From a virus: 38,856 nt of DNA. Location of the stretch: IMG/VR virus record IMGVR_UViG_3300020438_000102, positions 1 through 38,856 of that record; one strand, given 5' to 3'. Shown in pieces: positions 338-37,681 of this stretch. The translations under genes and the position numbers were made by a program. The first letter of the stretch is position 1, and every line of letters begins with the position of its first letter. A model generated the notes under the pieces. That model ran no database searches. It saw only the letters and a list, made by a program, of their open reading frames with translations, and was not told where the DNA came from.

Positions 338-994
338 TCAAAATGCAGTTCCCATCGTCGTAATTGGTTCTGGACTTATACTATCTACTAAAATATCAAA
401 TGCTACACTAAATCTGTCATTGTCAGCAACATGTTCAGTAGATGCATGATACAAATAGCTTGGAAAAAATGTAAGTCCGCCTTGTCTGTTTGGAATTGTA
501 TATTGTACTCCGTTATCAAATGGATTAAAATATACTGTACTTGTTTCATAATCTTCTAAGTGTCCATTTCCGCTGAGATATGAAAAGTGTGTTGCACCGT
601 GATTATGTTTTTTAATTTTTTGACCAGTGTGAACAATATTAGCCCACGAGTTTAGAGTGCAAATTTCGTTATTAACATTTAATTCTTTACAGAATTTTTT
701 ATATTCGTTCTTTACAAATAATTTGTAATCAACAAATGCATCTATGTCCTTTGTTTCATCAAATAAATCAAAGTATTGGAAATTGGAAGTAAGGCTATCA
801 TTACCTAAACCAGTACCCCCGTCATTTCTTTCTTTATCTTTATGTTTCTCTTTAATGATCGGAGCATTTTGTTCAATCCAATCCTTCATAATATATAAAT
901 TTTCTTTATTTTCATATGTTGTCACCCACAAGTTTATATTCCATGTAGGTGTAAAAGGAGTCAGTGGATCTATACTTGAAAAGTTATGAAGCAT
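338..994 (-). CDS. putative 2-oxoglutarate/Fe(II)-dependent oxygenase
   Basis: A 218-residue protein with the layout of the small phage 2OG-Fe(II) oxygenases (P4H-like fold, PF13759-like). Candidate iron ligands are His130/His132 in KKHNHGATHFSYLSG and His183 in FPSYLYHAS; Arg194 in DNDRFSVAFDI fits the 2-oxoglutarate-binding arginine. These enzymes hydroxylate a substrate using O2 and 2-oxoglutarate; the substrate here is unknown. The reading frame could begin 25 codons earlier, but the ATG at 994 follows an AGAAAGAGAAATA purine-rich site, and the earlier part would lie inside the upstream gene. It overlaps the 67-residue gene by 11 bases and so belongs to the same transcript as the gp46/gp47 genes. 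Family assignment is good; biological role is open. Confidence 0.75.
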   Translation of the reverse strand: MLHNFSSIDPLTPFTPTWNINLWVTTYENKENLYIMKDWIEQNAPIIKEKHKDKERNDGGTGLGNDSLTSNFQYFDLFDETKDIDAFVDYKLFVKNEYKKFCKELNVNNEICTLNSWANIVHTGQKIKKHNHGATHFSYLSGNGHLEDYETSTVYFNPFDNGVQYTIPNRQGGLTFFPSYLYHASTEHVADNDRFSVAFDILVDSISPEPITTMGTAF

Positions 995-1187
995 TATTTC
1001 TCTTTCTAGTAGTTTGATGTTTTTGATGTATTTCTTCCATACGTATCTTTGCAAGTTCTCTAATATCACGTAAACATTTTCTTACATATCTATGTGTTCT
1101 TACAGAATTGCGCTGTTCAAAAACATCGTTTGCTTTGAAGTATTCTAAGTATGCTTTTACCAATTTATCTTGTGTATCATCTGCCAT
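984..1187 (-). CDS. small conserved-type protein of unknown function, downstream of gp46
   Basis: A 67-residue protein, highly charged and probably all helical, with a basic tail (QTTRKRNNAS). I do not recognise a named family. The core RYVRKCLRDIRELAKIRMEEI reads as an amphipathic basic helix, which could suit nucleic-acid or protein binding, but this is inference. The frame extends 17 codons further upstream into gp46. I chose the ATG at 1187 because it lies 7 bases after the gp46 stop with an AGAGAT purine stretch before it. Position directly after gp46 and tight packing suggest co-expression with the recombination nuclease. Its end overlaps the oxygenase start by 11 bases. Confidence 0.7.
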   Translation of the reverse strand: MADDTQDKLVKAYLEYFKANDVFEQRNSVRTHRYVRKCLRDIRELAKIRMEEIHQKHQTTRKRNNAS

Positions 1188-4958: not shown

Positions 4959-5891
4959 ATGGCATCAATTTTTGAATCTTTTAATAACTTAGCTGGAAAC
5001 CTAGTTGGCGGAAACCCTATCCAGACAGCACAAAGTGTAAGTCGCTTTACACAAAATATTGGCAATGCAGTTACATCCTTTTCAAATTTATCTTCTGGTA
5101 GGGGAAGTAGGATTGACAACGTAAGATCCGGGTTAAATGCAGTTGATAATTTAATTACTGCGGCAGGAGGCGGATCCTCTGGCGTAGGTAAAGCTATACG
5201 AATGGCAAACAACGCAATACAAGGCGTATATCCAGGAGCGGCACCTGAACAAAGAACATTTAGTCGTGCTATTCTTAGAGATACATATTCAACTGTAGAT
5301 GCAGAAGATTGGCGAGTAAAAATTACTGGTCCTGCTGATTTAATGCAAGGAGATGTCCTTGCACCTATTGCGGATACTGGAAATAGTATGATATTTCCGT
5401 TTACTCCAACAATAATTTTAGGTTCAAGCGCAAATTACTCAAATATACAACCAGTACATACTAATCATCCATTTTATGTATACGAAAGCAGTCAAACTGA
5501 TCAAATTACAATTACCGGCGAATTTTTTAGTGAGAATGCAAATGATGCAAAGTATTGGGTAGCATGTTTGCACTTTCTTAGAACAATGACTAAAATGTTT
5601 TATGGACAAAGTGAAGACCAAGGCAACCCTCCACCTGTGTGTAGATTAAACGGCTACGGAAAACATGTGTTTAACAATGTTCCGGTACTAATCACAAACT
5701 TTACTACTGATATGCCAGCGGATGTTGATTATATCGAATGTAATGTAAATGGTAATGTTGACTATGTGCCTACTCAAAGCATTTTTACAGTTACAGTAGT
5801 ACCCAATTATGCAAGATCAGCACATTCAAAGTTTAGTTTACAAAGTTTTGCACGAGGCGATACTTTGCAAACAAATGAAGGATTTATTTAA
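4959..5891 (+). CDS. 48: baseplate tail-tube cap protein gp48
   Basis: A 310-residue protein of the gp48/gp54 type that closes the baseplate and starts the tail tube. Residues 1-90 are rich in Asn, Ser, Gly and Ala and look flexible or weakly helical. The conserved core (about 95-300) contains EDWRVKITGP, FPFTPTIILGSSANYSNIQP and AKYWVACLHFLRTMTKMFYG, a pattern I associate with gp48 of marine T4-like phages. GGAG lies 10 bases before the ATG. Its TAA stop overlaps the ATG of gp53 (TAATG), suggesting coupled translation. The choice of gp48 over the related gp54 rests on recalled similarity and position next to gp53, so the gene name is less certain than the role. Confidence 0.78.
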   Translation: MASIFESFNNLAGNLVGGNPIQTAQSVSRFTQNIGNAVTSFSNLSSGRGSRIDNVRSGLNAVDNLITAAGGGSSGVGKAIRMANNAIQGVYPGAAPEQRTFSRAILRDTYSTVDAEDWRVKITGPADLMQGDVLAPIADTGNSMIFPFTPTIILGSSANYSNIQPVHTNHPFYVYESSQTDQITITGEFFSENANDAKYWVACLHFLRTMTKMFYGQSEDQGNPPPVCRLNGYGKHVFNNVPVLITNFTTDMPADVDYIECNVNGNVDYVPTQSIFTVTVVPNYARSAHSKFSLQSFARGDTLQTNEGFI

Positions 5892-6217
5892 TGGCAACTT
5901 TAACTGATTCAAACATAAAGAAATTACAAAATAAAGGTCCGTATGGGAAAACTCCTGTAAATTCTGCAGGATATCTTGATATTATGACAGCAAGACCAGT
6001 TCCAGTAGGCCTAGATGATATATTATATGAAATAACACCTGCGTATACTTATAGGCCAGATTTACTTGCAAATGACTTGTATGCAGCAAAAGATTTATGG
6101 TGGATTTTTGCTCAAAGAAATCCAGACGTTATTAAAGACCCAGTTTTTGATTTTGTAGCAGGCACCAAGATTTATCTGCCACAAAGAAAACATTTAAAAA
6201 ATATTTTAGGAGTATAA
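5891..6217 (+). CDS. 53: baseplate wedge subunit gp53
   Basis: A 108-residue protein. The block YRPDLLANDLYAAKDLWWIF, followed by AQRNPD and DPVFDFVAGTKIYLP, is characteristic of gp53 of T4-like phages and resembles a LysM-type fold. gp53 joins baseplate wedges to the hub during assembly. It is shorter than T4 gp53 (196 residues), keeping mainly the conserved part, as in other marine relatives. It starts inside the gp48 stop (TAATG) and ends directly before the next ATG (TAAATG). Confidence 0.9.
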   Translation: MATLTDSNIKKLQNKGPYGKTPVNSAGYLDIMTARPVPVGLDDILYEITPAYTYRPDLLANDLYAAKDLWWIFAQRNPDVIKDPVFDFVAGTKIYLPQRKHLKNILGV

Positions 6218-9200
6218 ATGCCAAGTTGGTTATCTACAGCTGCTACGCAAGCAAATATAAAGGCGTCTGCCGCCGAAGGCGTAATGTCACTTACTTCTAC
6301 AACAGTAAATTCCGCTGCAGGAGTAACCACCGCTGGTTTAAATGCCGGCTCTCAGTTTTTAACTGCAAATATCCCTAACAACACAACACAGACAATAATA
6401 AATTCACAACTAAATGGTTCTACAGCTCAGGCTATTGGAGGTATCAGTGGGTTATCAAACGGCTTGTTAAACCGAAGCCAATTAGATGCAATACAAGACG
6501 GCGGATTTAATTATCTACAAGAATCCGGTGCTTTAAAACTTGATAATATTTTAGGCGAGTTAGCTGCAGGCTCTCCTGCAGGCGACTTAGGAGGACTAAT
6601 AAACGATAACATAGACTTAGGTGTGTTTGGAGGATTAACACAACAAGAGACTACAGATATTATGAATTCTATCAATTCTTCAATATCAGCAATTAAATCT
6701 CCTGGGGACTTTGTAAAAGGGTTTGGATTTGATAAGTTGAATAATATTGTAGGCGGATTTTCTGATATTGGAAATTTTATACAAGAAACAATTAATGTTA
6801 TACCCAAAGATTTTAATTCTATTCTAGGAGCAGTAGGCGGAGAGTTTGATGTTCTTAGAGAATTAATTGAAGACATTGAAGACAGAAGTGGCATATCCTT
6901 AATAGACGGTGCAATAAGTGGCGCACCTGCAAAATTTAATCCTAATCCTCTTAGAGAATATAATTCACACAATTATGTTATTACATTTGGTATAATGAAT
7001 GCTGATACAATTAATAATCCTGAATTACTTAGACAAGACAGCTTTACAAAAGTAATAGCAAGGACAGGCGGCGGAATGTATGACAAGAGGCATCAAATTC
7101 CTGTAGAAAAAGAAATTGGCGGCCATGCAGAATACTTTATAGACAATTTGCAAACATCGGCAGTAATATCCCCTAATCAAAAAACTGGTATTGCATTAGG
7201 AACTGATCTTAGTTTTGAAATTACAGAACCGTATAGTATGGGAAATTTCTTACAGTCTGTTGTTGAGTCTGCTAAAGATTTAGGATACAAAAATTATAGC
7301 GAAGCTGTATACGGAATAAAAATTGAATTTACTGGTTATGACGAACAACTAAACATTGCTAATCTTGTTACAGCACCGGCATATATTCCTGTCAAAATTT
7401 TAAATATAGAGTTTGATGTATCTGGATCTGGATCTGTATATTCACTAAAAGCTGTTCCATATAGCGAAGTTGCACTAAGTGACGAAGCTGCAGAAACAAA
7501 AATGGATATAAATGTTGTTGGTTCTACAGTGTCAGATTTATTATCTGGGGTTGATAGAAGTGTAATGACTGTTATTAACCAGCGTATAGATGGCTTAGAA
7601 GATTCTGGGGCAATACCTAATCAATCCGGCGACAGGTATATAATTGCATTCCCCAAAGACCCTGCAGCAATTATGAAAATTGTAAACGGAGAAATATCTC
7701 CACCCGATCAGATACAAATTACAGCTGCAGAACAATTAAGAAGAGAAAAGGGGTTAGCTGAACTACCTGAGGATGATCCTAGAAAGCAAGAAAGTTTGGA
7801 TGCTGTAAAAGTTCCTAGCAAGAGTGCTATTTTTACAAATTTGGAAAATTATTGTCGTAATATTTCATTTATGAATGAAATAGGTCTTAGTTTAATGGTA
7901 CCTGATGACAACCAAGGCGGCACAGCACCTTCACCTGATTTAAGTGCATCATATAACGAAGAAGGTGTAGCAGATACAACAGCAGGAGAAATGACTGTAG
8001 CTGAAAAAGCAAGGGAAAAAAGCTTTTCTTCAGGAAGTCGTATAGATGAAATAATTGAAAAGGTATTAGTAGATAGTGAATATGCAGCAGAAAATGCAGC
8101 TGAAATTTCAGAAAATGGAATTCGTAAACTGTATAGAATTAATACACATGTATTTCAAGACACTAATCCCGAAGCAGAAAAAATTAAAGGTAGACCGCCG
8201 TTAGTATTTGTTTACGCAGTAGTTCCATTTTACACTGACGATGCAAGTTTTCAGCCTCCAAACGGCGTAGCAGCAAACCGTGGCGGAATAAGACAAGCTG
8301 CTACAAAAGAATACAATTATATCTATACTGGAAAAAATGAAGATGTATTAGATTTTAATATTAACTTTAACAATGCGTTTTTACAAGAAGCATATGCTAA
8401 CTTTGGTATGAATCCAGGAGCGTCGGCATCAGGAGGATCTGACAGAAAAACTTTTCAAAATACTGGCGATCAAAAAGGCGCAAGTACAAGTAAAGCTAAC
8501 AGCGGCGATAAATCGTCTGCAGGCGGAACAACAACAGAAAGAACAGAATTTGCTATTACAGGCGACAGTAGAACAACAGATATTAGAAAACGTTTAGCAG
8601 AAACATTCCATCATAGATTCCTAAATAACAATGTTGACATGCTGAGTGCTAGTTTAAATATATGGGGAGATCCTTTTTATCTCCCCACACAAACAGGAAA
8701 CTATATCGCTGATAGAGCAAGCGGAACTCCTTCTGTAACTGAAGAAGGGTATATGACATATTTAGAAAATGATGTGTATGTTATAGTTAACTTTTCTACT
8801 CCGGTTGACTATTCTATAGAAGGAGACAATATTTTAAGATCTCAACTTGTGCCGGAATTTAGTGGTATATACAGAGTCTTAAGTGTACAAAATAGTTTTA
8901 ATAAAGGTCAATTTACTCAAAGTTTAGAATTACTTAGATCGCGTGGACAAGAGGACGAAGGCGAACCGGGAACATTTGTAGAAATTAATGATGATGTTGC
9001 AGTAAATACCGGACCTGGAACACAACCAACTACAGGAGACGTAGGCGGCAACGAAGAAGGCGGTAACAATGATTCGCCTTGCGAATCTCCATTAGACTTG
9101 CTTCCTAAAGTTGGTGACAAAGTTGACCGTGTTATTACGGGTGTATTTCCTGAAATCAAAAAACTTGCAAATATTCCTAGTTTAACAGTTGCAGGTGTAA

Positions 9201-9346
9201 CATGGTCTCCGCCTGAATCGTTATTTGCAGCTATTCCTAGTGTAAGAAAGGCAGACGTTGATGCTGCCGTAACTCAAATCAACAATGCTACAGATCAAGC
9301 AGTGTCGGCTGTAAATAGTATAACAGGTATTAAAGGACCCTTCTAA
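6218..9346 (+). CDS. large probable baseplate hub structural protein (1042 aa)
   Basis: A large virion protein without a clear T4 counterpart by sequence. Residues 1-235 are Gly/Ala/Asn/Ser-rich. A central region (about 245-450) has alternating beta patterns. Near 803-831 is LNIWGDPFYLPTQTGNYI, and near 883-912 SGIYRVLSVQNSFNKGQFTQ followed by SLELLRSR. The last pattern, a beta strand pair ending in L-x-L-x-R, recalls hub proteins of the gp27/gpD type. Residues 915-1042 form an acidic tail with a Cys-containing segment. Its place between gp53 and the lysozyme-gp5 pair fits the gp27 role, the ring that anchors gp5. The next gene begins inside its stop (TAATG). AGGAG precedes the ATG. The hub role is inference from position and pattern. 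Confidence 0.6.
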   Translation: MPSWLSTAATQANIKASAAEGVMSLTSTTVNSAAGVTTAGLNAGSQFLTANIPNNTTQTIINSQLNGSTAQAIGGISGLSNGLLNRSQLDAIQDGGFNYLQESGALKLDNILGELAAGSPAGDLGGLINDNIDLGVFGGLTQQETTDIMNSINSSISAIKSPGDFVKGFGFDKLNNIVGGFSDIGNFIQETINVIPKDFNSILGAVGGEFDVLRELIEDIEDRSGISLIDGAISGAPAKFNPNPLREYNSHNYVITFGIMNADTINNPELLRQDSFTKVIARTGGGMYDKRHQIPVEKEIGGHAEYFIDNLQTSAVISPNQKTGIALGTDLSFEITEPYSMGNFLQSVVESAKDLGYKNYSEAVYGIKIEFTGYDEQLNIANLVTAPAYIPVKILNIEFDVSGSGSVYSLKAVPYSEVALSDEAAETKMDINVVGSTVSDLLSGVDRSVMTVINQRIDGLEDSGAIPNQSGDRYIIAFPKDPAAIMKIVNGEISPPDQIQITAAEQLRREKGLAELPEDDPRKQESLDAVKVPSKSAIFTNLENYCRNISFMNEIGLSLMVPDDNQGGTAPSPDLSASYNEEGVADTTAGEMTVAEKAREKSFSSGSRIDEIIEKVLVDSEYAAENAAEISENGIRKLYRINTHVFQDTNPEAEKIKGRPPLVFVYAVVPFYTDDASFQPPNGVAANRGGIRQAATKEYNYIYTGKNEDVLDFNINFNNAFLQEAYANFGMNPGASASGGSDRKTFQNTGDQKGASTSKANSGDKSSAGGTTTERTEFAITGDSRTTDIRKRLAETFHHRFLNNNVDMLSASLNIWGDPFYLPTQTGNYIADRASGTPSVTEEGYMTYLENDVYVIVNFSTPVDYSIEGDNILRSQLVPEFSGIYRVLSVQNSFNKGQFTQSLELLRSRGQEDEGEPGTFVEINDDVAVNTGPGTQPTTGDVGGNEEGGNNDSPCESPLDLLPKVGDKVDRVITGVFPEIKKLANIPSLTVAGVTWSPPESLFAAIPSVRKADVDAAVTQINNATDQAVSAVNSITGIKGPF
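8663..8687 (+). other. perfect 9-bp hairpin inside the hub gene
   Basis: TGGGGAGAT is followed by a seven-base loop (CCTTTTT) and its exact reverse complement ATCTCCCCA. The stem is unusually G+C-rich for this window. No T-run follows on either strand, so it does not look like a factor-independent terminator. Confidence 0.6.
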
Positions 9347-10659
9347 TGGCAGTTACAGTTAGCGATATGGATCGTAAATTATTGAAGTTGATTGCCGACG
9401 GAGAAGCAGTTAGATCAAATCCTTATTGTAGTGTATGGCCTGGTTCTGTAGAACCTTCACTTACTTCTATGACATTGTCTCAAGTCCAAGATTATCAAAC
9501 ACAACGAATTAACTCTGGAAGAGAATCTAGTGCAGTAGGAAAATATCAGTTTATTAAAAGCACATTAAAAGACTGCATAGGATATTTAGGATGCGATCCA
9601 TTAAGGGTATGTTTTACATCAGATGTACAGGATGCATTAATTATTAAAAGATTAGAAAAAACTAGAAGATATAGCAAATGGAAAAGCGGAGAATTAGATA
9701 GCGGAAAATTTATGATTTTTTTAGCTGCTGAATTCGCAAGTATGCCTGTACCTTATGATATTGCAGCAGGAAGTGTATACAAAGGACTGCCAAAAAGAAA
9801 TTTAAAAAAAGGTCAAAGTTTTTATGCTGGAGATGGATTAAACAAATCAAATCATAATCCTGACAGTGTATATCAAGCACTAGAAGATATTAGAAACGGT
9901 GGTGAGGGAAATATATCAGATGTTGACGTAACAACAACTGGAGGAAATAGAGCTAGACCACCTAGTGGGATAAGCACTAAATCACAAGTAGAAGCAACAT
10001 CTGCAGGATCACAAACAGGCGCATATAGACCTACTAGAGCAGGCGCTATGCCTTTGCCAAATGTAGATTTACCTGTAGTAGATAATCCATATGTATATTA
10101 TCAAATAGATGCGCTAGATGACAGGTATGATTTTAGATCTGGTGAAAAAGTAAAAGATATACTTGTACATGGAATAAATGCCGCGGCAATAAGTCCTGTA
10201 GTAGTTTCAGATCCTGGTGTAGCAGGAGGAACATCTGACGTTGGAACTTCGCCATCTTCTGCTGATGCTACTGGAGAAACCGAAAGTGTACAAAATCCAG
10301 ATGCATTAGATCCAAGAGGACAAGAACAATTACCTGATTTAGTTCCTAAAGAAGTACCTGCTCCTGTACCAACTGGCGAAGACGGAAATATAGATATTAC
10401 TGCTCCTGCATTACCTTATATAGAAAGTGTAATAGATGATGCATTAAATAGTATTCCTGTTTTCGGCGACTTAAAAAATGGAACTGCACCGTGTTTAGAT
10501 TCGGTCACAGGCGCCGGAGGTTATGTAGATGCAATAGACGGTGCAATAAACAACTTGTCTCCTGACGTAACAGGATTAGTAAATCAAGCCAAAGATGGGT
10601 TAACCGATAAGGCAAAAAATGCAGCACAAAATCTTACAAAAAGTTGGACTAATACATAA
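9346..10659 (+). CDS. lysozyme-like hub-associated protein
   Basis: A 437-residue protein. Its N-terminal 185 residues look like a phage muramidase/lytic transglycosylase: LIADGEAVRSNPY with Glu20 as candidate catalytic acid, and SSAVGKYQFI (61-70) with the GxYQ substrate-cleft motif typical of GH24/GH104-like enzymes. It should cut glycan strands of peptidoglycan as the tail enters the cell wall. The rest (about 190-437) is Pro/Gly/Asp-rich linker and an amphipathic Ala/Asn/Asp tail, probably a docking part. It sits between the probable hub protein and gp5 with TAATG overlaps at both ends, so the three are likely made together. In T4 the lysozyme is a domain within gp5; here it appears as a separate gene. 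No signal peptide or membrane segment is seen, and lysis genes are not nearby, which argues against an endolysin. Confidence 0.68.
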   Translation: MAVTVSDMDRKLLKLIADGEAVRSNPYCSVWPGSVEPSLTSMTLSQVQDYQTQRINSGRESSAVGKYQFIKSTLKDCIGYLGCDPLRVCFTSDVQDALIIKRLEKTRRYSKWKSGELDSGKFMIFLAAEFASMPVPYDIAAGSVYKGLPKRNLKKGQSFYAGDGLNKSNHNPDSVYQALEDIRNGGEGNISDVDVTTTGGNRARPPSGISTKSQVEATSAGSQTGAYRPTRAGAMPLPNVDLPVVDNPYVYYQIDALDDRYDFRSGEKVKDILVHGINAAAISPVVVSDPGVAGGTSDVGTSPSSADATGETESVQNPDALDPRGQEQLPDLVPKEVPAPVPTGEDGNIDITAPALPYIESVIDDALNSIPVFGDLKNGTAPCLDSVTGAGGYVDAIDGAINNLSPDVTGLVNQAKDGLTDKAKNAAQNLTKSWTNT

Positions 10660-13415
10660 TGGCAAGAAATGAACCACCAAGAAAAGGAACTACGTATACT
10701 CGTACAACAAGAGAATTACCACCTCTAAAAGTAGGTTCGCCGTACGAAGCTGTAATTGTTAATAATATTGATGTTAACAATATGGGAACACTAGAAGTAG
10801 AAATATTAAGATATACTTCTGCAGGAAACTTGCCAGAGAAAAGCGGACAACTTGAAACTGTACGCTATTTGAGTCCGTTCTATGGCACAACTCCTGCTAG
10901 AGGCTTAACAGAAAATGACGGATATGAATTTACGCAAAAAAGTTATGGTATGTGGGCAGTGCCGCCGGATATTGGCACTAAGGTATTAGTAATATTTGCT
11001 GAAGGAAATAAAAACTTTGGGTATTGGATAGGATGCATACCAGACGATTACATGAACTTTATGGTACCGGACGGAAGACCATCAACTACACTTACTACAG
11101 AAAACACACCTGAACACTTGATAGGTAAAAAATTACCTGTTGGTGAATATAATAAAATGGTTGAATCTGGTGAAAAAGTTGATACAACTCTTTTTAACAA
11201 ACCATATAACAAAGACTTTACACAAATATTAGAAGTTCAGGGTTTATTAGCAGACGAAGCTAGAGGCACTACTACAACTAGTGCAAGACGCGACTTTCCT
11301 AGTATGGTGTTTGGATGGAGCACACCTGGTCCTAAAGACAAGCGTAAAGGCAACCCAAAATTTGAAGTAGGGCCAGATGGTAAAAAAGTAGAGTTACCCT
11401 ACAATAGACTAGGCGGCTCATCGTTTGTAATGGATGACGGTGACGAAAGATTTGTTAGAGAAACACATGCAGAAGATGGTCCACCAAGATATGTAAACAA
11501 AGGCGCAGGATTTCCAGGCGGCGACGAAACTATACCGCAAAATGAATTGACTAGATTACGTACTAGAACAGGGCATCAGATAGTGATGCATAATTCAGAA
11601 GATTTAATCTATATTGCAAACAGCAGAGGCACAGCATGGATTGAACTATCTAGTGATGGTAAAATTGATATTCATGCCCAAGATAGTGTTAGTGTAATGA
11701 GCAATCAAGATATTAACTTTACAGCTGAAAGAGATTTTAACATTGACGCTGGTAGAAATATAAACATGAGGGCACAGGCTAGATTCTCCGACGGACAAAA
11801 AACGTTAGATGGCGTAGAGTCTGGTAGAATACAAATAGAAAGTGCGTTTGATACTAATATTTTAGTAGGTAACAATTATAAAAGAAATGTTTTAGGTACT
11901 AGTAATATAAAAATAGACATGGATAACTTTGTTACTATAGAAAACAATCACGAAGTTACAGCAGGAAATATCTTAAATACGTCTCTAGGTGGCTTCCATC
12001 AAAAATCTGCACATACTTTCTATAGAGAAAGTGCAAGTAATATTAACGATTTATCAGCAGGAGTATATCTTAATAAAGCTTCTGAAATAAATTCTCATTC
12101 TACTGGCGATACTAAAATACTTACTGTTGGCAATCATAATACTATTATACAGGGCGATCAATCTCTTACAATTACAGGTGCCAATACTATACAAGCCGAT
12201 GTGCAACATTTTGAAGCAACAAATGGTTTACATATATTAGGAGGCACAGCAATCGCAGGAGATGCAGATCAAATTAGTTGGAACACAGGAAAATCTGTTG
12301 CAGGAGTTGCAGCTTTGACTGCACTTAGTGCAACTTCAGCAACTTCAGCAAAGATTGCAGAACCAATTATACCACTTCCGCTTATTAACTTGCCTTATGT
12401 ATTTCCTGGTACTAAAGATACAGTGCCTTATGAAAGCATACACGCAAGAGCACCACAACACGAACCCTGGCCGCATCATGAAAATTTAAATCCGCTAGGA
12501 TTTAAAGCAGAACAAACTGACAGGGAATCACCAGGACAACTTATGCCTTCAGATAGGATATTGACACCTGATACATTTACAAAATCTAAATCTAATGTAC
12601 AAGAATCTGCAACAGTATTAAACTCTAGCGGAAATGACGATTACGGTACAACAGGCGATCAAACAATTGTTAATGGAGTAGATGTACCTCCGGAAACTGT
12701 ACCTGGAACAGAATCACTTAGATCTATTTCTAATTTCCAAGTTGACAAAGAAAGAACCGATGAATATATGGCTAAATCAGGATATGGAAAATATCTTGGT
12801 AGAATATTTGTCGGCGATGGTCCTCTTGGAACAATCACATCAGGTAAACGAGGACTTAAAGCAGACGTTGCAGAAATTTGGGTACCAAACTTCCAAGGAT
12901 TTATTGACGAACTAGAAGGCACCGGATACGAAATAAAAACTCTATTAGGATTCAGTAAGCGTACAATTGGTAAATCAAAAAACTGGAGTACACATGCTTC
13001 CGGAGCGGCTATTGATATTAACCCACCAAATCCTGTAAGGAACGGCACCCCTAATGGACTATTTAAACCTCGACCAAGAAATGCACCGGTTACAGACATG
13101 CCTGCAAATACAGGTGAAATAGCTAAAAAATGGGGGCTTGGCTGGGGCGGAAACTGGACATCTATAGATGATGCTATGCATTTCAGTACTGCTGCAAATG
13201 AAGGAGGAAGTTATAGATTTACTCCAGGAATAATTCCACAAGGTCCTAGCACCGACGCTACTGTAGATAAGGACGGATTGCCTACAGGTGAATATGTTGC
13301 TCCAAGTAAAGAAATTAATGAAGCACTTGAAGCAGAATCTCCTACGCCGCCAGAAAATGAAAATGCACCAGGACCACAAAACGCGGACGGTTCTCCAAAT
13401 ACTGGACCACAATAG
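10659..13415 (+). CDS. 5: baseplate hub/spike protein gp5 with C-terminal M15-type peptidase domain
   Basis: A 918-residue gp5 homologue, longer than T4 gp5 (575). The N-terminal 120 residues fit an OB-fold (VGSPYEAVIVNNIDVNNMGT, then GTKVLVIFAEGN, then YWIGCIPDDYMNFM). Residues about 314-531 hold short repeated beta strands (SVMSNQDINFTAERDFNIDA), as in the needle-like beta-helix of tail spikes. The C-terminal part (about 690-870) has the signatures of a zinc M15 peptidase: STHASGAAIDI with His779 and Asp786, and SIDDAMHFS with His841 and Asp837/838 as candidate base. Such enzymes cut peptide stems of peptidoglycan. No lysozyme domain is visible inside gp5; that activity appears to be in the preceding gene. 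A Pro/Glu/Asn-rich tail ends the protein. Start overlaps the upstream stop (TAATG). Confidence 0.85.
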   Translation: MARNEPPRKGTTYTRTTRELPPLKVGSPYEAVIVNNIDVNNMGTLEVEILRYTSAGNLPEKSGQLETVRYLSPFYGTTPARGLTENDGYEFTQKSYGMWAVPPDIGTKVLVIFAEGNKNFGYWIGCIPDDYMNFMVPDGRPSTTLTTENTPEHLIGKKLPVGEYNKMVESGEKVDTTLFNKPYNKDFTQILEVQGLLADEARGTTTTSARRDFPSMVFGWSTPGPKDKRKGNPKFEVGPDGKKVELPYNRLGGSSFVMDDGDERFVRETHAEDGPPRYVNKGAGFPGGDETIPQNELTRLRTRTGHQIVMHNSEDLIYIANSRGTAWIELSSDGKIDIHAQDSVSVMSNQDINFTAERDFNIDAGRNINMRAQARFSDGQKTLDGVESGRIQIESAFDTNILVGNNYKRNVLGTSNIKIDMDNFVTIENNHEVTAGNILNTSLGGFHQKSAHTFYRESASNINDLSAGVYLNKASEINSHSTGDTKILTVGNHNTIIQGDQSLTITGANTIQADVQHFEATNGLHILGGTAIAGDADQISWNTGKSVAGVAALTALSATSATSAKIAEPIIPLPLINLPYVFPGTKDTVPYESIHARAPQHEPWPHHENLNPLGFKAEQTDRESPGQLMPSDRILTPDTFTKSKSNVQESATVLNSSGNDDYGTTGDQTIVNGVDVPPETVPGTESLRSISNFQVDKERTDEYMAKSGYGKYLGRIFVGDGPLGTITSGKRGLKADVAEIWVPNFQGFIDELEGTGYEIKTLLGFSKRTIGKSKNWSTHASGAAIDINPPNPVRNGTPNGLFKPRPRNAPVTDMPANTGEIAKKWGLGWGGNWTSIDDAMHFSTAANEGGSYRFTPGIIPQGPSTDATVDKDGLPTGEYVAPSKEINEALEAESPTPPENENAPGPQNADGSPNTGPQ

Positions 13416-13430
13416 TAAGGTAAATATAGT

Positions 13431-13874
13431 ATGAGCGAACTAGAACAAAATCTATATAAAAAATTAAGCGTAGCAAGTTCTACAAAAGAACTTCCTGGCA
13501 GTAGGACTTATAGAGGATTTTCTTCTGCCACAAACGATAAAAGTTTTAAGGTTTATGACCACGAAGCTATAAAACAAGACATTATTAATCATTTCCATAT
13601 TAGACAAGGCGAAAAACTATCTGATCCAACTTTTGGATGTATTATATGGGACATATTATTTGAACCCTTCACAGTTGATTTACAACAAGCAATTATTGAA
13701 AATGTTACATTTATTATTAATTACGATCCTAGAGTTCAAGCTGAAGAAGTTATTGTAGATCAATACGAAAATGGCATACAAGTTACTGCAACTGTCAAAT
13801 TTATTAACTATTCTATAGTGGAAAAATTGCGGTTTAGCTTTGATCAGCAAGCAGGATTATTATTTAAAAATTAA
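13431..13874 (+). CDS. 25: baseplate wedge subunit gp25
   Basis: A 147-residue member of the GPW/gp25 family. The hallmark is GEKLSDPTFGCIIWDILFEP (about residues 60-79), followed by DPRV and a beta-rich end. gp25 forms the conserved wedge core with gp6 and gp53, next to the first sheath ring. Length matches the family. AAGG lies ten bases before the ATG. The next gene is gp6, its direct wedge partner, after a 51-base gap with a late-promoter-like element. Confidence 0.95.
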   Translation: MSELEQNLYKKLSVASSTKELPGSRTYRGFSSATNDKSFKVYDHEAIKQDIINHFHIRQGEKLSDPTFGCIIWDILFEPFTVDLQQAIIENVTFIINYDPRVQAEEVIVDQYENGIQVTATVKFINYSIVEKLRFSFDQQAGLLFKN

Positions 13875-13925: not shown

Positions 13926-16900
13926 ATGTCATCAAGTGATAGACAGTCTAGATTACTAGTATCAGAAGACTGGAAAAGAATTTATAGTAGCTTTAGAAAT
14001 GCTGACTTTCAAAGCTACGATTTTGATAACTTACGCAGGGCTATGATTAACTATCTGCGTCAAAACTATCCCGAAGATTTTAATGATTATATCGAATCTA
14101 GTGAATATCTAGCCTTAATCGACATGATTGCATTTTTAGGTCAAAATATTTCTTTCCGTGTAGATCTAAATGCAAGAGAAAATTTCTTAGAAACTGCAGA
14201 ACGTAGGGAAAGTGTCTTACGTTTAGCTCGTATGCTTGCATATAATCCAAAACGTAATCAATGCGCTAACGGATTGTTTAAAATTACAACTGTAAAAACA
14301 ACAGAAACAATGTTTGATAGTCAGGGAATAAATTTATCTAATACTGTTGTTAAATGGAATGATAATGCAAACAATAATTATTTTGAACAGTTTTCAAAAA
14401 TATTAAATGCAGCACTGCCTATAAACAATAGTATAGGAAATCCTTTAAAGTCACAGGATATAGAAGGCGTGACTACACAAAAATATAGATTTAATTCTAC
14501 AAATAGTGATGCGGCCCTTTTTCCGTTTACAAAATCAATGGAAGGCACTAACGTAAAAATAGAACTAGTAAGTTCGGATATAGACAACGGCAGTATTGTT
14601 GAAGAGCCTCCACTGCCGGGAACAAGTCCAGCATTTTTGTTTAGAGATGACGGACAAGGCGCAGGAAGTTCTAATACAGGATTTTTTATGCATGGTAGAC
14701 AAGGTACTATGCAACAAGGCACTTTTAATATAACAAACCCAACTGCTAATCAAACAGTTGCAATTGATGCTCAAAATATAAACGACTCTGATGTATGGTT
14801 ATATAGTGTTGACTCAAATGGCTTTGAAACAGCTCAGTGGACAAAATTAAACGCCGTACAAGGTAATAACGTCATATATAATAGCATCTTTAATCAAGTT
14901 AGAGATATATTTGCTGTAGAAAGTCGTATTGGCGATAGAATTAATGTAGTTTTTAGTGACGGAACATTTGGAAACTTACCAAATGGTAATTTTAAAATAT
15001 ATTATAGAACAAGTTTGCCTACTCCTGCTGTAATTACACCGGGCGCAGTGGGTAATATAAATATCGCCATTCCTTATCAAGCTAGAAACGGAACTCAGCA
15101 AACTTTAACTTTGGGATTGAGACTACAATACACAATTATCAACGGTAGTGCAGCAGAGTCAAATGCTGATATCAAACTAAATGCACCTACTTCTTATTAT
15201 ACGCAGAATAGATTAATTACTGGGGAAGATTATAATGTAGGACCATTGTCTGTTAGCCAAGAAATTATTAAGACAAAAAGTGTAAACAGAATCAGTTCGG
15301 GAATTAGTAGATACTTAGATATAAAAGATCCTAGTGGAAAATATAGTACTACAAAATTGTATGCAGACGATGGCGTATTATATAAAGACATTTATGAAAC
15401 AAAACAAGACTTTACATTTTCGTCACAAAGTGACATAGAAGGCATTATTGTAAACAGACTACAAGGAATAATCGAATCTTCCGGTGTTAGAAATTTTTAT
15501 CTTGCACAGTATTCTAAACTAATTGTTGACGATCTTAGTGCAACATGGAACAGTTTTAGTAATTTAACTAACCAAAATATTGGTACTATTGTAGATAATG
15601 ATTCAACAGCATTTCCAGTAGGTACATTTACTTCTAGTAATTTTAAATCTATATTGCCTGGTGCTATGTTAAAATTTGTTGCTCCTGAAGGTAAACATTT
15701 TATGTCAGACAACAGTCATGCACTTATGGACGGCGAAGCAAATCATCCTTTTGCTGTGCTTTATAAATGGACAAAAGTTACAAATATTGTAGATGATGGT
15801 ACTATTATAGACCCTGATCTAAACACAGGCGGCATAACACTTAGTGACTCTATTCCAACAGGTGCAATACTAGAAGAAATTATTCCTGCTTTAAGCATAT
15901 TTTTTACAAACGATTTAAAAACACAAATTATTGATCAAGCATTTGCTTATAAAGATTTTGCATTGCGTTTTGATAGAACAGACGGTTTGTGGAAGTTAAT
16001 ACTTGCAGAGGATATTGACACAATTGATCAATTTGCATTAGGTAAGACAGGAGATACTTCCGGGCAAAATCTTGACGCAAGTTGGCTAACATACTTCAAA
16101 ACTAATGGAGAGAAATATACAGTAACTACAAGAAATTTACGATATATATTTGAAAGTGAAAATGAAACAAGATTCTCTTTTGATAGTTCTGATAAAATTT
16201 ATGATCCTAAATCAGGAAAAATTGTTAGAGACAAAGTGCGTGTCCTTGACATTAATACTCAGCCTGATATTAATAAACCTTTCACTCAAAACTATGACTG
16301 GAATATTAGTAATTCTTACAAAGACTCAGAAGGATATGTAGATACTAGAAAAATACAAGTTGAGTTTTTTGATTTAGATAACGATAATGTAATAGATGAT
16401 CCAGATCTTTTCAATCAAATCGTTAGTCCACTTGTAGCACCACAACAAAAACTTGTATTTCTAAAAAAGTTTACAACAAGTGATAACGTAGAAGAATTTA
16501 GATATTTTAATAACACAGATAATACAATTATTACAAAAACAAATCAAGCTGCAATCGGAGCTTATAGTCAGTATGAAAATGAAGGACAAATTTTCTACTT
16601 GTATGATGAAGGCATTTTTAAACAACTTAATAAAGTTTTAAATAATTTATCTACTGTTGATACATATCGTGCTTATACCGGTAGAGATAAAATTAGATTT
16701 GAGTACACACATGTTGCAGACTCCAACTATAGAATTGATCCTGCTATTAGTAATATCATTGACACATATGTTTTAACAAGACAATACGATACAAATATTA
16801 GACAGTATTTGAACGGAGTATTATTAAATTTACCATTACCTCAAAGTAACGACGAGTTGTTTAGAAACTACGGCAGCGAAATTAATAAAATAAAGTCAAT

Positions 16901-17546
16901 AAGTGACGAAGTCATTTATCACCCAGTTAAGTATAAGATACTATTTGGTACAGAAGCTAATGAAGATTTACAAGTGATTTTTAAAATTGTTAGAAACAAA
17001 GATCTTGTCGTTAATGACAATGAGTTAAAAGCTGATGTAATTACTGCAATTAACGAATTCTTTGCAATTGAAAATTGGGACTTTGGTGAAACATTTTACT
17101 TCCAAGAGCTTTCGGCATATATTATAAACAAACTAACACCTAAGCTAGTTAGTATTGTAATAGTTCCTAGACAAGGATCTCAAGCATTTGGTAGTTTATT
17201 TGAAATAAGATCAGAACCAGATGAAATATTTATAAGCGGAGCATCTGTATCAGACGTAGAAATAATTAAAGAAATTACTGCTGTACAAATTCAAGCAAGC
17301 GGCAAAGTAATTACAAATAGTGCATCATCTACGTCAGGAATAGCATCGGGTAATGCAACAGTTACACCTAGGACTACTAGCACAAATAACACCACAGTAG
17401 TTAATACATCTAATAATAGTTCAAGTGGTTCTAGTTCAAGTGGTTCTAGTTCAAGCGGTTCTAGTTCAAGCGGTTCTAGTTCAAGCGGTTCTAGTTCAAG
17501 CGGTTCTAGTTCAAATAATTCTAGCGGTGGAGGCTATAGTTACTAA
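13926..17546 (+). CDS. 6: baseplate wedge subunit gp6 with Ser/Gly repeat tail
   Basis: A 1206-residue gp6 homologue (T4 gp6 is 660). The N-terminal 110 residues are highly typical: DFDNLRRAMINYLRQNYPED, then SSEYLALIDMIAFLGQNISF, then RVDLNARENFLETAERRESV. Near 430-480 is the gp6/gpJ-like core with ITGEDYNVGPLSVSQEIIKT. gp6 dimers form the inner ring of the baseplate that passes the contraction signal. Most extra length is in the second half. The last 40 residues are almost only Ser, Gly and Asn, encoded by a 15-bp tandem repeat (17418-17522), then a short GGGYSY end. The stop overlaps the start of the giant gene (TAATG). Confidence 0.93.
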   Translation: MSSSDRQSRLLVSEDWKRIYSSFRNADFQSYDFDNLRRAMINYLRQNYPEDFNDYIESSEYLALIDMIAFLGQNISFRVDLNARENFLETAERRESVLRLARMLAYNPKRNQCANGLFKITTVKTTETMFDSQGINLSNTVVKWNDNANNNYFEQFSKILNAALPINNSIGNPLKSQDIEGVTTQKYRFNSTNSDAALFPFTKSMEGTNVKIELVSSDIDNGSIVEEPPLPGTSPAFLFRDDGQGAGSSNTGFFMHGRQGTMQQGTFNITNPTANQTVAIDAQNINDSDVWLYSVDSNGFETAQWTKLNAVQGNNVIYNSIFNQVRDIFAVESRIGDRINVVFSDGTFGNLPNGNFKIYYRTSLPTPAVITPGAVGNINIAIPYQARNGTQQTLTLGLRLQYTIINGSAAESNADIKLNAPTSYYTQNRLITGEDYNVGPLSVSQEIIKTKSVNRISSGISRYLDIKDPSGKYSTTKLYADDGVLYKDIYETKQDFTFSSQSDIEGIIVNRLQGIIESSGVRNFYLAQYSKLIVDDLSATWNSFSNLTNQNIGTIVDNDSTAFPVGTFTSSNFKSILPGAMLKFVAPEGKHFMSDNSHALMDGEANHPFAVLYKWTKVTNIVDDGTIIDPDLNTGGITLSDSIPTGAILEEIIPALSIFFTNDLKTQIIDQAFAYKDFALRFDRTDGLWKLILAEDIDTIDQFALGKTGDTSGQNLDASWLTYFKTNGEKYTVTTRNLRYIFESENETRFSFDSSDKIYDPKSGKIVRDKVRVLDINTQPDINKPFTQNYDWNISNSYKDSEGYVDTRKIQVEFFDLDNDNVIDDPDLFNQIVSPLVAPQQKLVFLKKFTTSDNVEEFRYFNNTDNTIITKTNQAAIGAYSQYENEGQIFYLYDEGIFKQLNKVLNNLSTVDTYRAYTGRDKIRFEYTHVADSNYRIDPAISNIIDTYVLTRQYDTNIRQYLNGVLLNLPLPQSNDELFRNYGSEINKIKSISDEVIYHPVKYKILFGTEANEDLQVIFKIVRNKDLVVNDNELKADVITAINEFFAIENWDFGETFYFQELSAYIINKLTPKLVSIVIVPRQGSQAFGSLFEIRSEPDEIFISGASVSDVEIIKEITAVQIQASGKVITNSASSTSGIASGNATVTPRTTSTNNTTVVNTSNNSSSGSSSSGSSSSGSSSSGSSSSGSSSSGSSSNNSSGGGYSY
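17418..17522 (+). repeat. 15-bp tandem repeat (minisatellite) coding for SSSGS units
   Basis: Six copies of AGTTCAAGYGGTTCT run head to tail from 17418 to 17507, followed by a diverged seventh copy to 17522. The first two copies carry T at the variable position and the next four carry C. The unit is a multiple of three, so copy changes keep the gp6 frame and only lengthen or shorten the Ser/Gly tail. Confidence 0.97.
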
Positions 17547-20500
17547 TGGCGTATGATAATAATCAAAATGAAAACGCACTTCCGACGCCCGACAGTGGCG
17601 ATAAGACATCTGTAAATTTTTTACCTAAGTTTTTTAGGACTGAAGCAAATAGAAAATTTTTACAAGGTACAATAGATCAGCTTATATCTAAAGGCGCCGC
17701 TGAAAAAATTGACGGATATGTAGGGAGAAAATATACTTCCTCTTATAAAGCAAATGATAACTATCTAGAAGAAACTTCCCAACAAAGAGAAGATTACCAG
17801 CTTGAGCCTACAGTTACAATTAGAGACAATTTAAACAATGTAGACTTTGCTAAAGATTATAAAGATTACCTCAATATAATTAAGTATTTTGGCGGCAGTA
17901 TTTCAAATCAAGATAGATTAAACAAAGTAGATACATACTCTTGGAACCCCCATATCAATTGGGACATGATTACTAATTTTAGAGAATACTATTGGTTGCC
18001 TAATGGTCCTTTGAGTGTTGCTATTGCCGGGCAAGCAAGAGATATTACAAGTACATACTCTGTTACAGTTGAAGATCAGGGCGACAACGATGTTTATATT
18101 TTTAATGACGGTCTTACAGCAAATCCTAAATTAAACTTATATAGAGGACAAACTTATAAGTTTGAAATTGACACTCCGGGACATCCTATTGCGTTTGCAA
18201 TAGAAAGATCTTTTGTTCCAGGTAAAGCTTTATTAGTAGCCGGTAAAGAAGGAATTAGGTCTAGCGGATTATTTGATGCAGAACTTTATGGTAATGAATA
18301 CGATATTGGAGACTTTGTTGTTACACCCGAAGCAGGAAGTGTAACATTTGAATCTGCAGAAAATGTATCAACACTATACAACGACGGAATTAAGAAATTT
18401 AACGAAGCCGGTAATGAAGTTGCTATTGTTTATGTAGAAAAAGGAACAATAACATTTACTATACCTGCTAATGCACCAGACAGACTGTATTATATAAGTT
18501 CCGCAACACCTGATACAAGTGGGTTAATTAAAGTATACGATATCGAAGAAAATACATTCTTAAACGTAGAGCAAGATATACTTGATAAAAAAACTTACAC
18601 TAGTTCTAATAATGTAGAGCTTACTTCGGGCATGTTGGTAAATTTTACAGGATCGGTTTCCCCTGCAAAGTATGCAGACGGCAGTTGGTATGTAGAAGGA
18701 GTTGGACAAAATATAAAACTTGTATCACAAAGAGATTTAGTATTGCCTTCAGCTTACACAGAGAATATTGAAATTCCGTTTGATACAAATAACTTTGATG
18801 TTTTTCCGTACTCAACAGCAAATAACTATCCGCAAAATAAAGATTATATTGTAATAAATCGTGGAGCAAACGATAGAAATCCTTGGAGTAGGACCAATAG
18901 ATGGTTCCATAAAGATGTAGTATTAAAGAGTTTCGAATTAAATGGACTAAATGAAAACTTAGATGATAATTTTAGAGCAAAACGCCCTATTATTGAATTT
19001 GAAGCAGGGATAAAATTATATAATTTTGGCACACAGGCAAAACTTGATATTGATTTAATTGATACAAAAACAACTGATGTGTTTAGTAACGTGCAAGGAC
19101 AAGAAGGTTATATTATTGATAATATAGAGCTTGCCGAAGGCATGCGTGTATTATTTACAAATGATAAAGACCCATTAGTTACTGGTAAAATTTATGTAGT
19201 AGAATTTAAGAGCATAGGAAAAAACAGAAGGGTTATAAGTTTTAAAGAACCAGTAGATTGCGCACCTCAAGATTTAGAAACTGTATTTGTAAAAATTGGT
19301 AAAGCGTATGCTGGCAAGACATTTCACTATCATAAAAATGTTTGGACACAAGCACAAGAAAAAAGTTTGAATAACCAAGAACCTGTATTTGATTTATGTT
19401 GTCCGAGCGGTAGAGAATATGCTGATCAAGATATTTTTGACGGGTCAACTTTTAGAGGTACTAAGTTATTTTCTTATAAAAAGGGAACAGGTTCAAATGA
19501 TCCTGAATTAGGGTTTCCGTTAACTTATAGAAACATTGAAAATACTGGTGATATACTATTTGAATTTAATTTGTTGACAGATGTGTTTACATATCAACAA
19601 GATGATGATAAAATTGATGTTTCTACAAGTATAGCTAATCTAAAAAAATATAAAACAAGGACAGTTTTTAATTATGTGAACGGTTGGAATAGCAAACCTA
19701 CTAGATTTAAACAGTATGTAATAAGAGATATTGAAGTATTACCTAATCAATTAAATAATTTTGAAGTAGATGTATATGATAACGCATATTTGTTAGACGA
19801 CCTTACAGTAAAAGTTTATGTTAACAATAAATTAAAAGTAAATCTACAAGATTATACCTTAGATAAGGGTGTTAATTTTATTGCGGTTAAATTTAATACT
19901 GATTTAGTTGAAGGCGACTTTGTAAAATTTAAGACTCACTCTGCACAAGACAAAAATGAAAATGGGTATTACGAGTTACCAGTCAGTTTAGAAAGAAATC
20001 CCCTAAATGCTGATCTTGTAGAATTTACATTAGGTGAAGTATACGATCATGTTGATAGTATTGTTGAAGAACTAAACGGATTTACAGGAGTATATCCTGG
20101 AAATAGTAATTTACGTGATCTTGGTAATGTAACACATCTAGGAAAACATTTTGTTAAACACGAAGCAGGTTTAGCAAATACTTTGTACCATCTTACAAAC
20201 AAACAGTATAATATTATAAAAGCTTTAAAATATTCTAAAAGGAAATATGCTACATTTAAGACAACTTTTATAGATACAGCTACAAATTTAGGATTTGACG
20301 GAACAAATAAAGCGCACGTAGATAAAGTTTTATTGGCTATTAATAAAGACAAACCTAAAGTACAACCTTTTTACTTTAGTGATATGGTAGCTAGTGGTGA
20401 CAGCAATAGAATAGAATACACTATAATTGATAAAGAAATTAATTTGTATCCATTGACGTCAACCTTTACACTTAGTGATTTATCTGCAAAAGCAGTATTG

Positions 20501-23500
20501 CTATATTTAAACGGCACACAACTTGTACATGATAGAGATTATACTTTTAATGACGATGGATTTGTTAACATTGCGTGTCAAAAAGAAAATGGCGATACAT
20601 TAGAAATTTACGAGTATGCAACTACCGACGGGTCATTTATTCCACCTACTCCGTCAAAACTAGGATTGTATCCTACATGGCATCCAGAAATTTTTATAGA
20701 CTCTACACAGTCTAACAAGCCACTAATCAATACAGCAGGTCCTTTTAAGATTTACGGTGAAGTTGAAGTAGGTAGTTATAAAAATCATCATGGATGGTTT
20801 TATCCTTTATATACATCAAATGCTGCAGCTAAGTCTGCAGATACTGCTGCCGGCGGCACAGGCACCTGTGTTAACTTATTATTTAAAGGACTGCCTGTAC
20901 AATTTTATATACCAACTGTGTCTGCAAATTATGCAACGATAGACGATCAAGAATTAGGAATTGAAGAATATCCAGTAAACTTATCATTTGTAAAAGGGCA
21001 TGACGGTAGCCAGATTAAATGTTATAAAGATTATAGAGATAATTTACTATTAGAATTAGAGAAACGTATCTATAATAATATCAAAGTAGATTATGCTAAT
21101 AATAATATTGATTATTATAATTTTGTAGGTGGCGATTTTAGAAAATATCAAAATTCAGTAAAAGTACAGAACAAAGTATTACTAACTGACTTTATAGAAT
21201 ATCAAGCAAATATAAACGAATCTTATTCCACAAATGATTATGATAGGAACAATGCGTTTACTTACAATTATTCAGCTGGTAATAATCCATCTGGAGATAG
21301 GTTGCCAGGATATTGGCGCAAAATATATATAAATGCATTTGATACTGATCGTCCACATAGTCATCCTTGGGAAATGCTAGGTTTTCAAAATAAACCCACA
21401 TGGTGGAATACAGTCTACGGTCCTGCTCCCTACACAAGCAATAATTTAGTACTTTGGGAAGATTTAGAATTAGGACGCATTGCAGAACCAGGCAAAGAAA
21501 AAATAGTAAAAAAATGGGCTAGACAGAATTTAAAGAATTTTATTCCTGTAGACGGAATGGGACAATTATTGCCGCCTGTAAATATAAATTATATTCAAGG
21601 ATTTAATCAAAGAAAAGCCAACGCTGCGTTTGAATTTGGCGATGCAGGCCCTATTGAAAATTCTTGGCGCAGAAGTTCTGAATATCCATTTGCAATTATA
21701 AATGCAATGCTGTTAGTTACACCTGCAGATATAATTGCAAAAGGTTTTGATGTATCAAGGGCTGTAAAAAATCTTGCAGGACAAGTTACATATGACGATA
21801 CTGGTAAATTTATTGAAAATAAAAATATTTTGTTTCCTAATACTTACGAAGATACTGCTAGAATCAGTACTAGCGGCCTTATAAATTATGTTTATAATTT
21901 AGTTTCTAGTAATGTGCTAAAAGTTTATACAGACTACCAAGATAACGTAAAACAATTAGATGTAAATTTAAGTTTTAGATTAGCTGGGTTTAGTGACAAA
22001 AAGAAACTTAATGTAATTTTAGAAAGTAAGTCACCTAAAACAGAAGTTGGTAGTACTGGAGTATTTGTACCACAAGAAAATTACGAGTTAGTGTATAATG
22101 AATCATCCCCAATTGATACGTTTTTATATAGCGGTGTAATTGTTGAAAAAACTACACAGGGTTTTAAGATATCAGGTTATGCACAAAATTCTCCCTCATT
22201 TAAATATTATAAACCGCTATTAGGTGCTACCAAATATGTTGTTGCCGTTGGCGGAATAAGTGAAGAATTTACTCAATGGGCTCCTAGAACCGTTTTTAGA
22301 AAAGGACAAATTGTATTTTACTTGAATACATATTACAGAGTAACTGACAGTTTTACATCTAATCAATCGTTTGACGAAGACAATTTAGCAAAACTTTCAG
22401 CTTTGCCTACATCAGGCGGCAGAGCAGCTGACTTTTATAAAAGTTTCGATACATCTACAACAGAAGAGCTAATTTACGGAACAATATTACCAGATATTCA
22501 ATCAACTGTAGACTTTTTATTAGGTTATGGAAGATATTTAGAACTTCAGGGATTTACTTTTGATGATGTAGAAGACAATATAGTAAATGACTGGATGTCT
22601 GTTACAAAAGAATTTATGTTTTGGACAACACAAGGCTGGGCAAACGGTACAATTATTAGTGTAAGCCCTTCTGCAAACATTTTAAGTTTTAAAACAGAAT
22701 ATGCTGTAGTTGACAATATTTTTGATGCGTTTTACGATTACAATGTTATTGCAACTAACGGACAAGTGTTAGAAAGAGACTTTAACAATGTAATAAGAAA
22801 AGACAATGAGTTTGGCATAAAGCCCCGAGATACTGATTTAGGTATATATGGTGCTTCGCTACCTATTATACAAAAAGAACATATAATTGTTTTAGATAAC
22901 AATACAATTTTTAATGATGTAATTTATCATCCTGCATCGGGCTATAGACAACAACGTATAAAAGTAAGCGGATACCGTTCAGATAACTGGAACGGCAGTT
23001 TAAATATTCCAGGCTTTATATACGACAATGCTATTGTAAAAGAATTTGTGTCCTACAAAGATTATAAAATTGGCGATTTAGTAAAGTACAAACAGTACTA
23101 CTATGTTGCAAATAAAAATTCAGTAGGACAAAACGATATAGATTTTAATAGTTGGACAAAATTAAATGAAAAACCTGTTCCTGATTTAATTACTAACTTT
23201 GACTTTAGGGCACAACAATTTAATGATTTTTATGAACCTAATACAGCTAGTTTTGATAATGATTTGCATGAATTAGGATCAAGATTAGTTGGGTTTCAAA
23301 AACGTGAATTTTTAAGTAATTTAATTGTTGATGATGTAAGTCAATTTAAATTTTATCAAGGCATGATTCAAGAAAAGGGCACAAAGAATGCTATCACAAA
23401 ATTATTTGCGCCCCTGAGTAATAATAGTCAAGAAAGTTTAGAATATTTTGAAGAATGGGGAATACGTTCAGCCCTGTATGGAAGTACAGATGAAGTTAGC

Positions 23501-35731: not shown

Positions 35732-35732
35732 G

Positions 35733-37640: not shown

Positions 37641-37644
37641 ATTG

Positions 37645-37652
37645 AATAAATA
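37645..37652 (+). promoter_or_regulatory. late promoter element AATAAATA before the third fibre gene
   Basis: AATAAATA lies in the 41-base gap between fibre genes, 30 bases before the next ATG, with a ribosome site AGGGG (37668-37672) in between. Only the first base differs from the T4 late element. Confidence 0.62.
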
Positions 37653-37681
37653 AGTATAATACACTTTAGGGGTTCGACAGA

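Follow-up and report, generated by a model that had tools for sequence, protein, structure and literature searches.

An M15 peptidase at the gp5 spike tip and an adjacent lysozyme/DDRYDF protein as a probable cell-wall drilling module of a marine T4-related phage

The window analysed here, the whole 38,856 bases of IMG/VR virus record IMGVR_UViG_3300020438_000102, holds the baseplate block of a marine, T4-related myovirus, in which a gp5-type central spike ending in an M15-type peptidase is encoded directly after a gene for a protein that joins a lysozyme domain, probably of the lambda-R type, to a conserved segment around the motif DDRYDF. We propose, with a probability of roughly 0.72, that these two proteins together constitute the cell-wall drilling module of the virion. 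Both open reading frames (ORFs) are present and intact on the plus strand as an earlier note on this DNA had placed them, each with an ATG start, at 9346-10659 (437 residues) and 10659-13415 (918 residues), with a one-base overlap.

The 10659-13415 product is assigned to gp5 by Pfam and PHROG matches. Its N-terminal part matches PHROG 13211, ‘baseplate hub subunit and tail lysozyme’ (E 3.9e-47), from residue 31 on, and its OB-fold region (approximately residues 31-127, 10749-11039) gives a weak PF04717 match (E 0.0025) over residues 94-127. The beta-helical needle (approximately residues 325-590, 11631-12428, the right end being an estimate) is marked at residues 325-375 by DUF2345 with an E value of 0.0014, below Pfam's cut-off, and the needles of relatives give better matches to DUF2345 and Gp5_trimer_C. 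T4 shares with the window the OB fold and needle of gp5 and a lysozyme function at the hub, putative in the window, but T4 gp5 carries its lysozyme between OB fold and needle. Because the window gp5 has no lysozyme domain at that place (neither Pfam nor PHROG matched a lysozyme family there or elsewhere in the protein, in agreement with what the earlier note had seen), its sequence indicates a spike of the gp5 kind that is not a T4-type tail lysozyme. At the needle end stands the motif RxPxHEPWxHHEN (RAPQHEPWPHHEN, residues 597-609, 12447-12485). Among relatives, 336 loci yielded 304 complete gp5 proteins, from which 115 non-redundant ones were classified, and HEP[WYF] is found in 101 of these 115; the motif's His residues may serve as metal ligands there. 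Nine enzyme-less spikes have 11-58 residues between the motif and the C-terminus, and M15-group spikes have 236-539 residues beyond it. The position of the motif near the C-terminus of the enzyme-less relatives thus places the M15 enzyme past the spike tip, as an appended domain.

This enzyme has its core at residues 772-843 (12972-13187), matched by Peptidase_M15_4 (Pfam, E 3.8e-15), within a fold spanning approximately residues 717-862. The assignment of the gp5 end to an M15-type peptidase with His779, Asp786 and His841, made before from the letters, is upheld by this match and by the invariance of the three residues, which form the HxxxxxxD plus H zinc motif, in 20 of 20 relatives of the subtype that we call M15a. 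Asp838, three residues before the last His, is kept in 19 of the 20 and is presumably the catalytic acid expected from phage M15C endolysins. An AlphaFold model of residues 688-883 (predicted local distance difference test score, pLDDT, 75.5) had Ply500 (2vo9, E 8e-3, probability 0.98) as its best match in the PDB, then LysB4 and, later, VanXY and MepA, with Hedgehog domains, a related fold, interspersed among the M15/LAS matches. At the level of sequence, phmmer searches of the PDB with the whole gp5 and with the whole upstream protein returned nothing useful, and profiles of M15a and of M15c, one of two further putative subtypes found at the tips of relatives, matched nothing there; the profile of the other, M15b, reached Ply500 at E 0.055. 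We note that part of the needle of locus L040 had entered the M15a hidden Markov model (HMM), which caused false second matches in L032, L040, L087 and L265 and drew in L251, since removed from the set. A true M15 domain is seen by sequence in L032, L040, L265 and L088, the last being a close relative of L087.

The upstream protein consists of the lysozyme domain, a conserved segment of ~50 residues containing DDRYDF and a long low-complexity tail; A, D, G, P, V and S abound outside the lysozyme domain, save in the conserved segment. The lysozyme domain (residues 4-198, 9355-9939, with Glu20, G65-x-Y67-Q68 and Q95-D96) matches PHROG 90, endolysin, with an E value of 1.8e-21. A profile built from 27 sequences of the domain finds lambda lysozyme (3d3d/1am7) at E ~0.008, and hhalign against lambda R together with three lambda-R-like spike tips gives a probability of 98 and an E value of 2.2e-13, placing Glu20 on lambda Glu19. 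Glu20 is present in 96 of the 108 matches that have a residue at that position and GxYQ in all 111 of 111, so that the lysozyme-like domain which the earlier note had recognized from Glu20 and GKYQ stands. A model of the domain (pLDDT 91.6), compared with models of viral proteins, gave matches of E 1.2e-10 at best, including a signal-arrest-release (SAR) endolysin transglycosylase, gp5 of Atu_ph07 and a phiM12 protein named ‘baseplate hub’. The profile match, the alignment of Glu20 with Glu19 and the matches to viral models are our reasons for calling the enzyme lambda-R-type (GH104), and it is probably a lytic transglycosylase; a lysozyme of T4 type was considered and rejected. Scanning genome contigs for the lysozyme domain turned up no relative. 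The matches of both the M15 and the lambda-R domain are far beyond chance.

The DDRYDF motif region (residues 246-275, 10081-10170, from HMM and alignment; the motif itself at residue 258) belongs to a segment found in the gp5-adjacent gene of every locus of the marine clade (63 upstream, 2 downstream), with or without a lysozyme domain, and we propose that it may be the part that binds the baseplate. No description of this baseplate-region family, which a large clade of marine phages has kept, came up in the literature searched. The earlier note had counted the upstream gene among the hub genes, a status that was not borne out, the protein persisting without lysozyme in relatives. Outside the marine clade the slot before gp5 is mostly without a gene. 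Two loci, L049:7084-11521 and L276, have a permuted order with the lysozyme/DDRYDF gene downstream of gp5. Enlarged DDRYDF proteins in which the lysozyme Glu is replaced by Asn occur at L047:7618-10002, L059:4835-7261 and L044:2624-5053; they have an added N-terminal region, SGNH-hydrolase-like by eye, and in L047 and L059, the members of this group that were scanned, the same protein contains a GH19-like endolysin domain.

The tip of gp5 is highly variable among the 115 classified spikes, which end in M15 subtypes, a VgrG3-like muramidase (Pfam E down to 1e-34), an SLT-like, lambda-R-like or GH19-like domain, CHAP, M23 plus T4 lysozyme, a trypsin-like domain, an S74 chaperone or nothing. A lambda-R-type lysozyme lies inside gp5 itself in Atu_ph07, L208, L328, L333 and L220. 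As read from these sequences, the spike tip is a site of enzyme exchange and the usual place for an enzyme in this phage group, as it is in VgrG3, VgrG2b and CBB, and the position of the peptidase after the needle, once remarked on as odd, is therefore an ordinary one. We also rejected the idea that it is unique, since evolved VgrG spikes and RaK2-like gp5 likewise carry an enzyme beyond the needle. Some tips deserve separate mention: at L213:6926-9256 a gp5-type spike is terminated by an intramolecular chaperone of the Peptidase_S74 family, which is unusual in a central spike; Atu_ph07 gp5 (L002:7393-9990) ends in a trypsin-like domain (PF13365, E 6.1e-17) after its lambda-R-like lysozyme; and the 1109-residue spike at L220:6926-10255 stacks lambda-R-like, SLT-like and apparently VanY-like segments after the needle, the last recognized by eye.

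From these elements we envisage the following scenario. The gp5 needle, presumably trimeric, would end in the HEPW tip motif, from which three M15 zinc peptidase domains would hang; these would be the first to enter the periplasm and would cut the stem peptides of peptidoglycan. A separate protein, perhaps anchored at the baseplate through its DDRYDF segment, would supply the lambda-R-type lysozyme domain to cut the glycan strands, and the two activities would jointly make an opening through which the tail tube could pass. The identity of gp5 and the gene order suggest that both enzymes are in the virion, and it is plausible that glycan strands and peptide stems would be attacked together.

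One alternative is that the 9346-10659 product is a late-lysis endolysin merely encoded beside gp5, with only the M15 domain of gp5 acting at entry. PHROG 90 is indeed labelled endolysin, and the best database relatives of the domain include free phage lysozymes besides the SAR endolysin. We nevertheless regard this as unlikely: the DDRYDF half persists in 27 of 27 marine loci without the lysozyme domain, no holin or spanin family adjoins the gene among the neighbours scanned, and relatives have this domain as part of gp5 or of other tail proteins, which, with the model matches to Atu_ph07 gp5 and the phiM12 protein, argues for a role in the virion. The M15 domain, for its part, might not cut stem peptides at all but process phage or host proteins, or be an inactive wall-binding domain, considering that the metallopeptidase of VgrG2b, also C-terminal on a spike, showed no peptidoglycan hydrolase activity (PMC6899460), and that one relative, L051, which shares a contig group with L049, has Asn in place of Asp838. 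This too seems improbable to us, given the invariant zinc ligands and the near-invariant Asp838, the nearest folds, those of the endopeptidases Ply500 and LysB4, which act on peptidoglycan, and the wall enzymes found as other tips at the same place. Several observations do weigh against the proposed module, the tree result of the next paragraph being one of them. Confidence in the M15 model is moderate, and its top match by fold has only the E value given above, with template-modelling (TM) scores in the range 0.36-0.46. Because hhalign of M15a with either M15b or M15c was not significant, these two tip types are assigned from motifs alone (RHDxGxAxD...HxD and NHxxGxAAD...HYDE, respectively). 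Finally, Foldseek found no significant match for the lysozyme model in the PDB.

The proposal that lysozyme and peptidase form one module raises the question of whether they are inherited as a pair by rule or by descent. A separate lysozyme gene is present at all 35 of the 35 non-redundant M15-tip loci with enough upstream sequence (33 upstream, 2 downstream of gp5), and at 23 of 23 when the count is confined to the securely assigned M15a subtype; a separate lysozyme domain is present in 0 of the 27 marine loci whose spike tip is a glycosidase, all of which keep the DDRYDF part. We do not take the raw counts, 35/35 versus 0/27, as proof of a pairing rule, since a spike tree made from the N-terminal 430 residues, the enzyme excluded, reduces them to two independent pairs: there are two changes of tip class and two of lysozyme presence, and they coincide (sign test, p 0.5). 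With only two independent switches significance is out of reach, so the rule is suggestive but unproven and could reflect shared ancestry. Such a founder effect, which would concern the pairing and not the identities of the domains, is a serious contender, if somewhat less probable than its opposite. In its favour, the VgrG3-type tips form one clade nested among the M15 spikes, and the independent pairs are as few as stated. Yet both traits change together at both switches, the M15 subtype has changed five times with the lysozyme always kept (M15a as a single clade is rejected by the approximately unbiased, AU, test, p 0.0003), and the catalytic Glu of the lysozyme is lost where a GH19-like domain is present. 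These distributions support, without proving it, the notion that one functional glycan cutter is required. Going further, and only tentatively, for we hold it to be rather doubtful in full, the DDRYDF protein might be a dedicated spike adapter that carries a lysozyme when the tip is a peptidase and sheds it when the tip is a muramidase, the two slots forming an exchangeable drilling kit with one glycan cutter always at the hub.

Dual wall-cutting baseplates are already known. The hub protein gp15 of Anabaena phage A-1(L) forms a dual hydrolytic baseplate hub that has been tested biochemically (PMC10966104); there, unlike in the window, all domains are on the hub protein and the spike is enzyme-free. 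CBB gp5 has a C-terminal lysozyme and M23 peptidase, and an adjacent gene codes for a lysozyme of T4 type (PMC5259590). Such RaK2-like gp5 proteins (CBB_240, Munch gp266) resemble the window in gene order, in the enzyme beyond the needle, in combining peptidase with lysozyme and in the extra lysozyme gene beside gp5; however, they carry M23 and a T4-type lysozyme on one gp5, with the extra lysozyme (CBB_239) downstream, whereas the window has M15 on gp5 and a lambda-R-type lysozyme on the upstream DDRYDF protein. Atu_ph07 gp699, its gp5, has the same lysozyme type and C-terminal enzymes on gp5, but the lysozyme is fused inside gp5 with the trypsin-like domain and there is no separate gene. Baseplate-region proteins of the cyanophages S-CREM1 (lambda-R-like plus VanY) and S-SRM01 (lambda-R-like plus M23), encoded close to the spike genes, likewise combine this lysozyme type with a peptidase for peptidoglycan, although on one polypeptide and off the spike. 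In the ‘evolved’ VgrG proteins of the type VI secretion system (T6SS), the VgrG3 muramidase and the VgrG2b metallopeptidase are C-terminal, beyond a gp5-like needle, as in the window gp5, and tip enzymes vary between strains (PMC9927483, PMC6899460). These are, however, secretion-system effectors with immunity proteins and without a separate lysozyme partner, and the window gene lies in a phage baseplate block; by analogy the window spike would work like an evolved VgrG but is not one. The open-access papers that the literature search brought up did not show a spike ending in M15 together with a lysozyme-bearing DDRYDF protein, subscription papers being outside the search.

The neighbourhood of the two genes, all on the plus strand, is that of a baseplate block: a gp53-like wedge (5891-6217, PHROG 7145, E 8.7e-23); a large baseplate protein of 1042 residues (6218-9346, PHROG 11190), which in relatives also precedes the lysozyme/DDRYDF gene or gp5; and, after gp5, a gp25-like wedge (13431-13874, PF04965, E 5.9e-10) and a gp6-like wedge (13926-17546, PHROG 10646, E 1.6e-288). 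Two jumbo phages, Munch and the PA5oct relative Paride, also have the order gp53-large protein-gp5-gp25-gp6, and Atu_ph07 has its gp53-large protein-gp5 part; on this shared order we group the window with relatives of the RaK2/PA5oct-type jumbo phages. Upstream of the block are SbcC/SbcD-like genes and a further gene, on the other strand, that occupies the late sigma factor position, and a 2OG-Fe(II) oxygenase-like gene (338-1069, minus strand, PF13759, E 2e-8) adjoins the SbcC-like gene. Directly after gp6 comes a single ORF of 5168 residues (17546-33052), whose first 651 residues matched no family in a Pfam scan; Paride has a very large virion protein at a similar place. Three consecutive tail-fibre-like ORFs at 33677-38854, the first with a Collar domain, are ~34-36% identical in their N-terminal regions and are a paralogous set, probably with a shared attachment site.

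Irrespective of how the pairing is explained, the tip sequences indicate that the enzymes are swapped among relatives as interchangeable modules, so that the spike tip of these T4-related phages is a plug-in site for wall enzymes much as in the VgrG proteins of the T6SS. The tip modules (M15, VgrG3-like, SLT, GH19 and CHAP) are candidate wall-active enzymes, and their distribution suggests a testable rule, that a peptidase at the tip needs a partner glycosidase.

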